From: Prolixibacteraceae bacterium | GTDB lineage: Bacteria; Bacteroidota; Bacteroidia; Bacteroidales; Prolixibacteraceae | Assembly (NCBI GenBank): GCA_019459485.1 | Contig: JAIBEZ010000044.1 | Location: forward strand, 1 to 64,000 | Length of the DNA stretch: 64,000 nt | Direction: 5' to 3' | Shown: in pieces, positions 1 through 5,087 of the stretch | Layout of the letters: each line of letters starts with the position of its first letter | Position numbering within the stretch: position 1 is the stretch's first letter | Made by a program: the position numbers and the translations under genes | Notes under the pieces: generated by a model | Database searches by the model: none | What the model was told of the DNA's origin: nothing | The model's input: the letters and a program-made list of their open reading frames with translations, nothing else

Positions 1-3000
1 GGCAGGCCGGTCACATTAACATCTGTAGCGCTTCCGCCAAAGGTGTAAACCGTATTTGTAATGGCCGATCCGGCACAAACTGTTGGATTTTGTGGTCCAC
101 TGGTCAGTGCTATCGTTGAAACAGCGTTCACAGTTACAGAAATGTTATAAGCATCGCTAACGCATCCTGTGGCACTTCTTCTTACAGTCAGTATTGCATT
201 ATAAGTAGCGGGAGCAGCTGCTGCCGGAATTGTCAGAGTAATTGATCCTGCCGAAAGGCCAGCATTGTTGACATCTGTAAAACCTTGAGCTTCGGCAGCA
301 GCATTGTAATCAATACTGTATTGGTTAGGTGGTCCGGTTGCCCCACTATAAGGAAGACTGGCAGAAGTTGTGCCTCGGCAAACTGCGGGATTGGCGCCAA
401 GTGTAATGGTTGGCAGGGCATTTACAGTAATTGGAACAGAAGTATAAACAGTATTTCCCGGTCCGCATGATCCACTATTCCCACCAAACCAGCAATCAAA
501 TTCTTTTACAACATCAAAAGTAAGATTATTAGCACCTGAAGCCGGGGCAGTAACTGTTAATGTATAAGTTTGTGTCGCTCCGGGAGCAAGCCCACCTGCA
601 TTAACACGTACATTATAATCAGCATCAGCATTCCATTTCACTCCGATATTCACATCGGGTCCAGCATCAGTCCAGGTAGCCGCCCCGATATTCTTAACAG
701 TCACCGTGACTGCTCTCGTTTCGCCAGCACACCAAGTTGCTGCGCCAATATTCATAGCAGAGAATTGTGCCAGATAATTAGCTGGAGTATATATAATAAT
801 TACCTGACCTCTTGCCCCATTACCACCGCTCATGCTTTGATTGGTTGAGGAACGTGCACCACCTCCGCCACCGCCCAAAGTAGTACCATTATTCCCATTC
901 CCATTACTTGTTCTAAAAGCACCGCCATTTCCACCATCAGGTGAACCGCCTTGTCCTATAGTTGTATTTCCCCCGTTCGTTCCATTTGCAGAGCTACCTG
1001 CACCACCTGCACCACCCGCACCATTTCCGTTAGAATTTCCTCCATTTCCCCCGTTCTGCGTTCCAGTTGCTCCACTACCGCCATCTCCATAATCATATCC
1101 AAAGAACCAACCTAAGCCCCGTTCCCCTCCTTCTCCTCCATTAGCAGTAACAGTGCCACCGGGTCCAGTAACAATAGAAGCTCTTCCATTATTACCATTA
1201 GCATTTGATCCTCCAGCCCCTCCAGCTCCAACCGTTACGTTATAAATTTGCAATTGACTTACTGTGAGATTTTGAGTTACATAGGCACCACCACCACCAC
1301 CACCACCAGCTCCATAGTAGGCACCACCACCTGCTCCGCCACCTCCCCAGCATTGAACAGTTATACTGGTAACGCCTGCTGGGACTGTAAATGTTCCTGA
1401 AGAAGTAAAAGTCAGACTTTCCATTATCCCCATCGCTGATTTCAACCTTACCTCCGGTTCAATTTCAGCTTCAACTTCAGTCGGTAGCGCAATGGCTTCC
1501 GCTTCAACGAGAGGTGCAGCCGCTTCGGCCTCCACAAAAATAAGGTGTTGGGCGGTGCCGGTGCTTCCAAAAATGTCGGTCACCTGGTAAGTGCGGGTAA
1601 TTGTGTAAGGGCAGGTGGTGCCGCTTTGGGTTTGTCCAACAAATTTAAAACTGGCCGCAACGAGGGTGCAATTGTACATCGCCTTGCCTCCGGCATCGGT
1701 AAACGCCTGCAAGTTGGAGTAGGGGGCAGGAACGGTTCCGTTGCAAATCACGGAAATGTTTTCAGGAGAAGTGAGTGGCAGTACCACCTTGCCGAACGTA
1801 CCCTTCACAGTGTTTGCCATCCGGCCTTCAGAAGTATTGACGACCCTGATAGCGCATTCGTTGAAAACAGTGATCCGGTCGAGCGGGATTTCGCTATAGA
1901 CGAAGAAAGTACTTAACGCAGGAGTGGCCGAAGTTCCCATCTGAAAAGTACCTCCGGCAATTGATTTGTATCTGCCGCTTTCAATGTAAACATCGTTGAA
2001 AGGAACCGTATTCGAATGGGGGTAAGTAAACGTGATCAGGGGATCGCCAACCAAGTTCAGATTGGCATCCTTCGAAATGTGAAAGGCAGCTTCGCCGGCA
2101 TCGGCATTTCCGATGGTTGCAATGTTCATTGTTCCGCCGGAAATGTTGCAGTTTCCACCACCGGTTTTAAACCTTCCTGCTATGTTGATAGTGCCTCCCG
2201 ATTGCGCAAAAGTACCGTCGTTGCTTGTTAACGATGAGTTTCCGGAGGCGGTTCCAATGTTGTAGGTTCCTGACGAAACAATGATTTTACCCTGGTTGGT
2301 CACAGTTCCGTTCTGGCCGGTGATGGTTGCATTGGCATTGCTTAACTCGAATCCGCCGCTTGCCGGAATGGTATAACTGCCAGCGCTGAATACCGGATTG
2401 CTGAATGGAATGGCACCCGATGCCAGCTTGAAAATTCCGGAGACAATGCTTAGAAATCCTATGGTGGTGGTGTTGCAAACTTTAAAATCGGCTCCGGGAT
2501 AAAAAAGCAGGGTTTTGCCCGGATTTTCCATTTCGAGGATTACGCCATTGGTTTCCTGTAAATTGGTTTTGACGGAACCTTCGCAGTTAAACATTGAGTT
2601 TCCGTTGGTAGTGCCAATAAACTTTATGCCAGCTCCTGAAGATTCAACGCAAAAATCAAGCATCCCGTTGTTAATCAGACTTACCCCAACCACCAAAAGG
2701 TTGTTTGTTACGGCTCCTGAAGCTGTTGGCGGGGCGCTCCGGAAGGTTCCTCCTGAATTGATTGTCACAATACCGCTGACTGTTACCGTTCTTTCGGCAA
2801 TGGCATCGAACTGCAAAATACCCGACCTGCCCTGTCCGACGGTGAGTGAGCCCAAAGCGGAAGTATGGGTGTCGATTGTAACCGTAGCGCCATTGGCAAT
2901 GATGACGTCGTCGCCTGCAACCGGAACACTGCCACCCACCCAGGTTGCCGCATTGCTCCAGTTTCCGCCGGTTGCGGTAGATGTAATGGCTACTGCCGGC

Positions 3001-4091
3001 GCCGAAACTGCGGAAGTCAGCTGAGCAAAATCGAACAAGCTGGTTGTTCCGCTGAATTTAGCGGGAATCGAATTGTGTTCATTCAAAATCAAGAGCCTGT
3101 CGTTGTGCAGCCTGCTTGCCGAAGCATCTTTTCCGGAGAAAGCAAAAAACAAGGTTAAAATGAAGAAAAGAGCAATATCCTTTGCTCCCGATAAAGATCG
3201 GGACAGGCTGTCTGCCTTTAGCTGACGGAAAGAAAATGAATCAGCAACCCGTCCGCGCAAAATAAGAAATATCGAATAAGAAATAAGAAACAAGGAAGTC
3301 AGGAAATGAGGCCGATGTGAAATTGGAGGTATTTCCTTATTTGGGCAGATTGCCGCGGCTTCGTGCCTCAGCCTCGCAATGACGGGTGCCTCAGCGCCCT
3401 TGGGTGCAAAATATTTATAGCAATTGAGCGAGGTAATTTGAACCCGTCCGCGCAAAATGATTATCAAGGCAATAATCTTCTTTCGGACGCCTGCCAGCCG
3501 CAGACAGCGAATAGAAAAATAGAAAATGAAAAAAATAAGAAATATCGAATAAGAAATAAGAAACAAGGAAGTCAGGAACGACGGGGCGATGGGGCGATGG
3601 GGCGAGAGGGCGGTGGGGCGAATCATGTCATCGAAGCGATATCCTTTGCTCCCGATAAAAAATCGGGACAGGCTGTCTGCCTTTAGGCGACGGATTGAAA
3701 ATGGAGCAGCAACCCGTCCGCGGAAATGCGTTAACAAGGCATTTCCAATATTTCGGACGGAATTGTAGTTACACAAGAGAAGCAACAGCAGGGCAATGAA
3801 TAAAAGCAGCAAAACATTGTTTAGAAAAAATAACACAACAGAAACAGTTGCCAGGGCAATATGTGCAGAAGTAATGCCGTTTTTAGAATTGTAAGTGAGC
3901 GGGGAAGTATTTTCAAAAGCACTACGGTCACTGAGTTCGGAGCAATGTTGGCTGAGACTGTCGAAGCCCGATTTAGACAATAGAAGCAGTGAATCATTTC
4001 TAACAGCAGTTTCGGTACTCCCGAAAACGGATGTTGAAACAATACAGAAAAGCAATACACTGAGTATTCTCCTGCTTATCAACTTCTTCAT
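1..4091 (-). CDS. Giant secreted surface protein, T9SS-type, 3' end beyond window
   Basis: One frame stays open from an ATG at 4091 to the left edge (over 1,360 codons); I checked it codon by codon from 4091 to 3171 and translated the rest. Residues 1-27 form a good signal peptide (MKKLISRRILSVLLF...). Residues ~80-320 are odd: hydrophobic stretches alternate with repeat-derived peptide containing GRVA and LKADSLSR, ending in a second signal-like segment near 302-325. Then come a NWSNAATWVGG-type beta-helix region, an EAEA-rich linker, a Gly-rich domain (~890-1085), a segment typical of extracellular Ig-like or NEW1-like folds (~1100-1190), and a PKD-like repeat (from ~1220). This layout is usual for large Bacteroidota type IX secretion cargo; the sorting domain would lie off the left edge. 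The real start could instead be a non-ATG codon near 3190, with the upstream part joined by repeat insertion. Confidence 0.8.
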   Translation of the reverse strand, partial: MKKLISRRILSVLLFCIVSTSVFGSTETAVRNDSLLLLSKSGFDSLSQHCSELSDRSAFENTSPLTYNSKNGITSAHIALATVSVVLFFLNNVLLLLFIALLLLLLCNYNSVRNIGNALLTHFRGRVAAPFSIRRLKADSLSRFFIGSKGYRFDDMIRPTALSPHRPIAPSFLTSLFLISYSIFLIFFIFYFSIRCLRLAGVRKKIIALIIILRGRVQITSLNCYKYFAPKGAEAPVIARLRHEAAAICPNKEIPPISHRPHFLTSLFLISYSIFLILRGRVADSFSFRQLKADSLSRSLSGAKDIALFFILTLFFAFSGKDASASRLHNDRLLILNEHNSIPAKFSGTTSLFDFAQLTSAVSAPAVAITSTATGGNWSNAATWVGGSVPVAGDDVIIANGATVTIDTHTSALGSLTVGQGRSGILQFDAIAERTVTVSGIVTINSGGTFRSAPPTASGAVTNNLLVVGVSLINNGMLDFCVESSGAGIKFIGTTNGNSMFNCEGSVKTNLQETNGVILEMENPGKTLLFYPGADFKVCNTTTIGFLSIVSGIFKLASGAIPFSNPVFSAGSYTIPASGGFELSNANATITGQNGTVTNQGKIIVSSGTYNIGTASGNSSLTSNDGTFAQSGGTINIAGRFKTGGGNCNISGGTMNIATIGNADAGEAAFHISKDANLNLVGDPLITFTYPHSNTVPFNDVYIESGRYKSIAGGTFQMGTSATPALSTFFVYSEIPLDRITVFNECAIRVVNTSEGRMANTVKGTFGKVVLPLTSPENISVICNGTVPAPYSNLQAFTDAGGKAMYNCTLVAASFKFVGQTQSGTTCPYTITRTYQVTDIFGSTGTAQHLIFVEAEAAAPLVEAEAIALPTEVEAEIEPEVRLKSAMGIMESLTFTSSGTFTVPAGVTSITVQCWGGGGAGGGAYYGAGGGGGGGAYVTQNLTVSQLQIYNVTVGAGGAGGSNANGNNGRASIVTGPGGTVTANGGEGGERGLGWFFGYDYGDGGSGATGTQNGGNGGNSNGNGAGGAGGAGSSANGTNGGNTTIGQGGSPDGGNGGAFRTSNGNGNNGTTLGGGGGGARSSTNQSMSGGNGARGQVIIIYTPANYLAQFSAMNIGAATWCAGETRAVTVTVKNIGAATWTDAGPDVNIGVKWNADADYNVRVNAGGLAPGATQTYTLTVTAPASGANNLTFDVVKEFDCWFGGNSGSCGPGNTVYTSVPITVNALPTITLGANPAVCRGTTSASLPYSGATGPPNQYSIDYNAAAEAQGFTDVNNAGLSAGSITLTIPAAAAPATYNAILTVRRSATGCVSDAYNISVTVNAVSTIALTSGPQNPTVCAGSAITNTVYTFGGSATDVNVTGL
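3172..3262. repeat. Composite palindromic repeat, copy 1 (inside the giant surface gene)
   Basis: Holds ATATCCTTTGC, a CCCGAT/ATCGGG hairpin, CTGTCTGCCTTTAG, GACGGA, and the ACCCGTCCGCG start of the second module, then runs into the AT-rich TAAGAAATA repeat. It is read in frame on the minus strand by the giant surface gene. Confidence 0.75.
3262..3303. repeat. AT-rich AAGAAATA-type dispersed repeat, copy 1
   Basis: A segment of repeated AAGAAATA/ATCGAATAAG units ending in AAGGAAGTCAGGA. It recurs at 3535-3577 and, as an inverted pair, at 58762-58866. On the minus strand it encodes a hydrophobic FLISYSIFLI-type stretch within the surface gene. Confidence 0.7.
3441..3507. repeat. CGTCCGCG...CGGACG repeat module with CTGCCAGCCGCAG tail
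   Basis: Begins ACCCGTCCGCG and ends TTTCGGACG followed by CCTGCCAGCCGCAG. The ends CGTCCG and CGGACG are inverted repeats. The same module occurs at 4991-5060 and within the composite copies. Confidence 0.65.
3535..3577. repeat. AT-rich AAGAAATA-type dispersed repeat, copy 2
   Basis: Near-identical to 3262-3303, including the AAGGAAGTCAGG end, and also translated in frame on the minus strand. Confidence 0.7.
3581..3622. repeat. GGGGCGAT-type low-complexity repeat
   Basis: Runs of GGGGCGAT with a period of 8-9 bases. Similar G-rich runs occur at 4683-4727, and on the opposite strand at 53626-53690. Confidence 0.6.
3637..3763. repeat. Composite palindromic repeat, copy 2 (full length, inside the giant surface gene)
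   Basis: GATATCCTTTGC, CCCGAT/ATCGGG hairpin, CTGTCTGCCTTTAG, CGACGGA, ~25 nt spacer, ACCCGTCCGCG, ~30 nt, TTTCGGACG. It matches 3172-3262 closely and 9140-9246 in architecture, and is read in frame as LKADSLSR-type peptide. Confidence 0.75.
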
Positions 4092-4682
4092 CGCAAATCC
4101 AATTAAACTAAATCCTTGTCAACCGGAACTCGTCTCACGGACACACTTTTAGCTATTCGTGCAAAGCAATAGTATGCTGCCGAACCTTGTTTCAAATATG
4201 TGTTTTACCGTTTGAGATTCCCCCCGGTGGCCGGTTCTCCGGCACTTTCATTCCCCCCTTTTTGACTGAATCGATAATGTAGATTGTGCAAATCGCGTTA
4301 AAGTTATATAAAATGTTGAAGGTATTTTTTCTATTTGCATAAAAGATACATTAGTTAGTTTTAAGAGGAGCAATAAAATCAATGCTATAACCAAATATAG
4401 AAAAATATTCAATAGAAAATACTTTAATTTACAATTTTAAAATGCTCATTTTAAGCGATATAAAAGAATCAATTAGAAAATAGTTGGATTCTGACACATG
4501 AGAAACTGTCTATTTAGAATGATTGTAAATAAGATTTTATTTTGTATGCCTGAAAACAAGTACAACATAAGGCGGAATTGGTCGGTTTTACTGCAACTTT
4601 GGAGCATTCAGAACGAAGTGAAAAGGACCAATCTGATTCTAATTTGATTCTAATTTAATTGGAAAAAATAGAAAAAGAAAAA

Positions 4683-4727
4683 GGCGACAAGGCGACAAGG
4701 CGAGAGGGCGAGGGGGCGATGAGGAGA
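4683..4727. repeat. GGCGACAAGGCGA-type low-complexity repeat
   Basis: Tandem GGCGACAA/GGCGAGA units with a 9-base period, akin to 3581-3622. Confidence 0.6.
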
Positions 4728-4990: not shown

Positions 4991-5060
4991 AACCCGTCCG
5001 CGGGAATGCGCCAAACAAAAGCATTTACTATCTTTCGGACGCCTGCCAGCCGCAGGCAGG
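4991..5060. repeat. CGTCCGCG...CGGACG repeat module, intergenic copy
   Basis: ACCCGTCCGCG, about 25 nt, TTTCGGACGCCTGCCAGCC and GCAGGCAG. Same layout as 3441-3507. It ends 28 bases before the DUF438 start codon, so it probably lies in the leader or promoter of that gene. Confidence 0.65.
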
Positions 5061-5087
5061 GAATTGAAAAAATTAAATTAAACTCAT

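Follow-up and report, generated by a model that had tools for sequence, protein, structure and literature searches.

Small repeats that enter genes and are translated there are already known. Rickettsia palindromic elements (RPEs) are short and dispersed and lie in frame within protein-coding genes (PMC10969869; PMC2635572), and the small mobile sequences of enterobacteria termed RU are described as intergenic units that are read as peptide inside some genes (PMC2759123). A precedent of another kind is the extended signal peptide region (ESPR) of type V secreted proteins, in which a conserved extension at the N terminus stands ahead of a canonical signal part (PMC8151025; PMC2805444). Why certain sites within genes tolerate such repeats can seldom be tested.

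We analyzed a window of 64,000 nucleotides of Prolixibacteraceae DNA, in which a minus-strand frame opened by the ATG at 4091 runs to the window edge without a stop in 1,363 codons (Table 1). The original prediction of a stop-free frame running from this ATG across several repeats is thus confirmed for all of the gene that is visible. The genome (G000) is a 5.5-Mb draft in 114 contigs, and since window position 1 is base 1 of contig C56, the giant gene is truncated by the contig end. The gene start is common to 16 genomes of one genus, which makes a rule of repeat tolerance readable: the tolerated stretch precedes a second cleavable-looking signal, shows little amino-acid preference, and holds no stop in 14 copies.

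Our best explanation, to which we assign a probability of roughly 70%, is a secretion signal in two parts, joined by a linker that has to remain open but would be discarded and would for that reason tolerate repeats. The giant secreted protein would begin at the ATG at 4091, and a long two-part signal would form its front. A first hydrophobic segment (H1) would be followed by a linker, basic in most species, and then by a second such segment (H2) carrying the cleavage site. Everything ahead of that site would be discarded, and the linker's main coding duty would be to keep the way to H2 free of stops for the ribosome; as H2 lacks a conserved start codon, the linker would have to be translated. 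Dispersed, mostly intergenic repeats may then have entered the linker in G000, G007, and G009 and been kept where the frame stayed open, and a different repeat may likewise have entered it in G006. An insertion in the linker would be cheap provided that the frame stays open, whereas an insertion into the body or a frameshift would be lost. What the sequences show directly is the open frame and its persistence between species, which repeats these are, and a weak preference as to amino acids; expression, cleavage, disposal, and export, like the reason for the tolerance, are what we infer.

Layout of the gene and its relatives

Table 1. Features of the gene start, its repeats, and its surroundings (positions in the window; G000 is the genome of the window).
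Feature	Position	Strand	Basis or remark
Giant secreted-protein ORF, 1,363 codons visible	3..4091	-	Open-frame check; Pfam G8 and Gly_rich_2
First hydrophobic segment H1, residues 1-24	4020..4091	-	Hydrophobic in 16/16 homologues
Variable, repeat-bearing linker, about residues 96-303	3183..3806	-	Other sequence, of different size, in G007 and G009
Second hydrophobic segment H2, signal-peptidase-like site GKDASA/S (by eye)	3117..3182	-	Hydrophobic in 14/14
G8 domain	2736..2945	-	Pfam
Glycine-rich domain Gly_rich_2	789..1406	-	Pfam
Composite repeat copy 1, peptide RGRVAAPFSIRRLKADSLSR	3630..3762	-	At least 25 own-genome matches including both ORF copies (40 of 75 candidates scored)
Composite repeat copy 2	3171..3261	-	KDIA, where the second signal starts, comes from its end
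AT-rich repeat copy 1, FLTSLFLISYSIFLI	3509..3578	-	Repeat comparison
AT-rich repeat copy 2	3259..3305	-	100% identical to copy 1
G-rich 8-nt tandem (GGCGATGG-type), peptide TALSPHRPIAP	3569..3629	-	Also intergenic, about 4681-4727
Third RGRV-type repeat unit	3441..3509	-	Repeat comparison
CATTGCGAGG-type composite element, NCYKYFAPKGAEAPVIARLRHEAAAICPNK	3320..3425	-	Same frame in G009 insert
ORF repeat units again, in upstream intergenic gap	4991..5082	.	Repeat comparison and own-genome search
Conserved leader, GGATTTGC directly ahead of ATG, TTTGCACAATCTACA at 5' end	4092..4292	-	89% (G007) and 87% (G009) identity
Candidate leader stem P1/P2	4212..4273	-	By eye in G000
Candidate RNA hairpin within ORF; 3' arm encodes R-N-D motif	3993..4043	-	Helix chosen by scan

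To place the gene among its relatives, proteins of 60 related genomes and of G000 itself were searched. Close orthologues, in G007 and G009 of the same genus, are 82% identical over the body, and their contigs are letter-for-letter the MAG records "Bacteroidota bacterium" C8_concoct.bin.46 and C3_concoct.bin.16. Scanning named genomes gave five loci, two of them from these contigs, and L042 to L044 were checked for the leader motif alone. A sequence model of the conserved leader supplied 15 of the 16 homologues (G000, G004, G006, G007, G008, G009, G010, G011, G012, G015, G017, G019, G020, G021, and G022). The sixteenth, G016, was missed by this model and came from its protein match, and protein matches lacking the leader, such as L005 and L011, were left out of the 16.

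Two hydrophobic segments are present in 14 of the 16 homologues and one in G016 and G022. The 14 share an order of H1, a linker of widely differing length, a second cleavable-looking signal, and a secreted body, with nine values for the distance from ATG to H2 of 303, 247, 210, 149, 136, 132, 102, 92, and 48 codons. In all homologues except G015, H1 is more hydrophobic than either of the other two sense frames. The net charge of the linker is positive in 11 of the 14 and zero in 3, which fits a linker that would remain in the cytoplasm; three TM-like 19-mers in the G000 linker speak against so simple a picture.

Eleven of the 14 two-segment homologues are free of G000-type repeat peptides, one of them, G006, carrying another repeat. 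Relatives that lack these repeats thus have two signals in the same layout, which makes a recent fusion of frames, offered in the original prediction as one way in which a second signal-like segment could follow the first, unlikely. The companion idea that an assembly or sequencing error joined two frames could draw on the fragmented state of the draft and on the gene reaching a contig end, yet 15 other genomes are open from the corresponding start, 13 of them through to the second segment, and the single-contig genome G011 is among those with an open frame. We regard such an error as scarcely credible.

Beyond H2, the body contains G8 and Gly_rich_2 in G000, G8, PKD, and HYR domains in G009, and G8 in G010. 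A curated type IX C-terminal sorting domain gave no NCBIfam match at an E value of 0.01 in the ORFs of G009 (3,537 aa) and G019 (2,084 aa), and on the strength of these two ORFs the protein is not filed as a type IX substrate. The ORFs of G009, G011, G017, and G022 have in common a C-terminal tail, PRP(N/E)(I/V)(I/V)KM(P/N), right before the stop.

Repeats in the linker and upkeep of the frame

The stretch from 3171 to 3762 is made up largely of repeats. The two composite repeats, two AT-rich repeats, and G-rich run described from the letters alone are all present and belong to dispersed families, the composite query having at least 59 matches in its own genome with the query itself counted, a lower bound that comes from scoring 40 of 137 first-look candidates. 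The two composite copies share a 69-nt core that is 88% identical, and the AT-rich pair (3259-3305 and 3532-3578) agrees at every one of 47 nt. The unit AACCCGTCCGCG occurs at 3246, 3441, and 3711 within the ORF and in an intergenic copy at 4991, and the CATTGCGAGG-type element has one further, partial match in the genome. The description of these repeats as palindromic is borne out only in part: they have short arms, CCCGAT/ATCGGG for example, but inverted repeats of 12 nt or longer were not reported inside the linker elements. The region upstream in G007 also holds several copies of the 8-nt GGCGATGG-type tandem.

Elsewhere in the genome of G000 the linker's repeat families are mostly intergenic. 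We examined 68 hit rows, comprising the 59 composite rows and 9 further ones, some overlapping, and 2 of these are the target itself. Sixty-one of the other 66 fall outside any ATG ORF of at least 150 codons, the class of ORF for which overlap was scored, so that shorter genes may also overlap. The remaining five lie in four ORFs, on C43, C19 (twice), C27, and C33, all of them without a Pfam match that passes a cut-off. The longest, the 289-codon ORF on C43, has its likely start at Met35 or Met43, downstream of the repeat, and looks like a 5'-extended call.

Comparison with the closest relatives shows how the linker has changed. G007 aligns to residues 1 to 132 and 295 to 630 of G000 with 51 codons between these blocks; homologues sharing the same 300 residues as ordinary coding sequence, which the original prediction named as a refuting case, are therefore excluded for G007, where about 51 residues stand in place of about 162. 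G009 contains a different insert, in which CATTGCGAGG-type, AT-rich, and RGRV-type elements are read in the same frame as in G000. As both relatives share the ends of the region and carry other, differently sized inserts, the proposal that repeats expanded the N-terminal region is supported, and by these alignments repeats have lengthened the linker in G000, G007, and G009. Repeats from the insert in G009 are dispersed as well, with at least 46 matches in G009 (query counted), 20 in G007, 18 in G016, and 7 in G022 at an E value of 1e-4, each figure a minimum from 40 candidates scored per genome. In the linker of G006 a different repeat lies in frame, encoding the peptide RHCEVRSNL (ITEARHCEVRSNLSNITHHCEVQ), and a 126-nt query covering it matches 18 further sites in the G006 genome.

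Evidence that this region is translated comes from the frame itself. Between the ATG and H2, the 14 two-segment homologues contain no in-frame stop in 1,965 codons, compared to 94 and 84 stops in the other sense frames. The leader model matches all 14, including 6 outside its building set (G004, G006, G008, G012, G015, and G021), and since it is blind to frames, broken copies would not have been hidden. An in-frame ATG within 25 codons ahead of H2 occurs in 1 of the 14, G006, and G000 has none. Given the absence of stops and the rarity of an ATG near H2, translation most likely runs from 4091 across the repeats, as judged from sequence comparison.

A start at or just before H2, with a long untranslated leader upstream whose open frame is accidental, would explain several observations. 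The codon-position pattern upstream of H2 is flat; between G010 and G020, upstream dS is about 0.40 compared to 1.36 to 2.55 in seven genes, as in a conserved nucleic acid; and a TTG four codons before H2 is common to G010, G019, and G020. Such TTG or GTG codons near H2 are, however, shared only within close groups and not across them (10 homologues), H1 hydrophobicity is specific to this frame in 15 of the 16, and neither the stop-free codons nor the want of a nearby ATG in 13 of the 14 would be expected. Translation beginning near 3190, which the original prediction named as its refutation, is accordingly disfavored, and we consider a start at H2 quite improbable.

How far could the open insert of G000 be due to chance? 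Stops account for 807 of 15,352 codons in 12 clusters of intergenic repeats from the same genome, and at this rate the naive one-frame chance of 203 stop-free codons is 1.7e-5. The longest stop-free run in the 72 frames of these clusters is 145 codons, with just 6 of the 12 clusters able to hold 203. An element-aware estimate, the product of the open sense-frame fractions of seven elements, is milder at ~1.5% because the repeats are themselves stop-poor. For the same reason the G000 insert by itself is suggestive, and it is the comparison between species that carries the case.

Substitutions bear on what is being selected. The 222 substitutions ahead of H2 in five pairs are distributed 60/83/79 over the codon positions, and when the same substitutions are placed at random, the product probability of no stop is 1.9e-4, in a tree-free treatment that takes the five pairs as independent though the homologues share ancestry. 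This value is driven mainly by G020/G021 (0.013), the other four pairs ranging from 0.26 to 0.51. A third-position excess is present in all 42 gene comparisons, which come from six species pairs with genes partly the same, and also in the secreted body. The dN/dS ratio is 0.14 to 0.17 in the body where measurable and mostly 0.3 to 1.2 ahead of H2. For codons 1 to 95 of G000 and G007 the positions count 13/19/21, a mild third-position lead, and dN/dS is 0.66, so that some amino-acid selection is possible there.

Two other accounts of the substitution pattern were considered. An overlapping or antisense gene behind the flat codon pattern was rejected, as all five other frames contain stops in 10 two-segment homologues. 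Low N-terminal dS as sole proof of nucleotide constraint was withdrawn because low-dS blocks occur elsewhere in this mosaic gene too, and G010/G020 alone still stands out. Taken as a whole, the comparisons favor translation through the region, with selection probably acting on openness and on the hydrophobic start and little on the residues of the linker. A bolder version, in which the 5' end is a translated spacer nearly free of amino-acid selection that follows a conserved leader RNA extending over the ORF's first 100 nt, and in which only openness and the reaching of the second signal are selected, is conceivable but doubtful.

Leader, RNA structure, and exchange of bodies

The leader measures 188 to 198 nt from its 5' motif TTGCANCAATCTACA to the GGATTTGC box before the ATG in the nine homologues measured, and that TTTGCACAATCTACA is a promoter is a guess. 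By the sequence model it has a single copy in G000, and a multi-gene regulon was rejected on this ground. It recurs in 14 other genomes of the genus with one copy each, save for a weak second match in G004. At an E value of 0.01 or better, 17 of the 41 genomes searched have a match, and 16 of these, G000 included, belong to the genus; the matches in G005 and G024 and the second one in G004 are weak and do not lie ahead of this gene. These results point to a leader specific to this locus that may have RNA structure.

Evidence for structure is mixed. Rfam gave nothing at gathering thresholds across the window, and at a relaxed E value the leader had no Rfam match in G000, L006, L008, L010, and L038. 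In the candidate stem P1/P2, 84% of cells pair in 10 other homologues with weak covariation, as high a value being reached in 30 of 500 shuffles for two-sided cells, 159 for two-sided pairs, and 107 for the score. The candidate hairpin within the ORF has 88% of cells paired and eight two-sided cells, a number matched by 2 of 500 shuffles; on four other measures, 16, 17, 33, and 217 of 500 shuffles were as high. Fold z-scores are negative in all 16 homologues (-0.5 to -4.7). With RNAalifold on four sequences, 11 windows had column-shuffle z values from -0.6 to -6.2 under a shuffle that does not keep dinucleotides, and the two that cover the ORF start were at -4.5 and -6.2.

These values raise the alternative that the beginning of the ORF acts mainly as RNA, with two hairpins continuing the leader into coding sequence and the H1 peptide arising as their by-product. 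The two-sided changes in the ORF helix, the uniformly negative fold scores, and the two low RNAalifold values would all be in keeping with it. Yet the helix was picked by a scan, and the least favorable of its five measures is equaled by nearly half of the shuffles; RNAalifold, which found pairs on subsets, gave no consensus pairs on the 16-row alignment or the 9-row leader alignment; in most of six sequences the leader folds no better than its shuffled versions (z of +1.3 to -2.2), the leader stems covary weakly, and the z values depend on the shuffle just described. We consider this alternative unlikely. Within the translated linker of G007, a repeat at codons 150 to 165 (L017 6470-6514; L038 2167-2211) resembles a known RNA, as taken up below.

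The two-part signal that we favor leaves room for different histories. One bears on the origin of the double signal and does not conflict with our best explanation: a resident 5' module of promoter, leader, start, H1, and linker would have been fused to exchangeable bodies that brought H2 as their own signal. Between G010 and G019, dS is 0.07 to 0.09 before H2 and 1.2 to 1.4 from H2 on, with 13 genes at 0.09 to 0.46, and between G011 and G017 it is 0.12 to 0.14 over codons 1 to 120 and above 1 over codons 121 to 601, with 12 genes at 0.16 to 0.67. The body just after H2 is G8 in G000, G009, and G010 and Gly_rich_2 in G021, G004, G012, and G015. Such dS jumps near H2, together with the differing body types, suggest body exchange behind a fixed 5' module. 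Against a fusion origin, residues 1 to 630 have no second copy in the genome of G000, the four other matches being repeats; G000/G007 and G007/G009 show no divergence jump at H2; and the gene is mosaic further along too, so that the boundary at H2 is not unique. We hold this origin tentatively, at somewhat less than even odds.

The mosaic is most visible in the 3,200-codon gene of G011 (L120) and G017 (L121), where dS alternates between about 0.13 to 0.6 and values above 1 in sharp blocks that look like a recombination mosaic. A body with 53% identity to the G8-type body of G000 lies in G021 on C174 (L005) and not on the leader contig C229, where the leader locus (L115) has a glycine-rich body instead.

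Comparison with described systems

Rickettsia palindromic elements, invoked in the original prediction as a precedent, are a fair one (PMC10969869). Like them, the linker repeats are short, dispersed, and multicopy, and they would be read in frame within a gene, to judge from a frame kept open across species. The host belongs to another phylum, and the comparison is one of description. RPEs are reported in unrelated metabolic genes, whereas the linker repeats are mostly intergenic and enter what is probably a discarded presequence. The RPE habit of occupying many unrelated genes does not appear in G000, where 5 of the 66 other hit rows fall in the four Pfam-free ORFs of at least 150 codons described above. 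The RU sequences were likewise compared by description and not by sequence, and differ in that frame upkeep is shown here through comparison of species.

A further point of contact is Acido-Lenti-1 RNA (RF01687), to which the G007 linker repeat scores 36.3 bits, just below the gathering score of 37; the G000 insert gave no match to it. For Bacteroidota, no comparable case appeared among the papers listed in the literature searched, which lacks most subscription papers, and a search with the letters of the repeats brought up nothing relevant by title among the papers listed.

The resemblance to the ESPR lies in an N-terminal extension before a canonical signal part, seen here as two segments in 14 of the 16 homologues with H2 and its cleavage site placed by eye. 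The linker differs in spanning 5 to 260 residues, where its ESPR counterpart is short and fixed, and in its Bacteroidota host. The ESPR family PF13018 gave no match at E values up to 5 in seven N termini, nor did any other Pfam family rise above its cut-off.

If the bolder version is true, the translated spacer would be a permitted landing zone for dispersed repeats inside a gene, and the frame-keeping of junk DNA would be directly visible across species. The two-part signal with its repeats resembles both RPEs and the ESPR and departs from each in a defining trait, and it points to an ESPR-like long signal in Bacteroidota.
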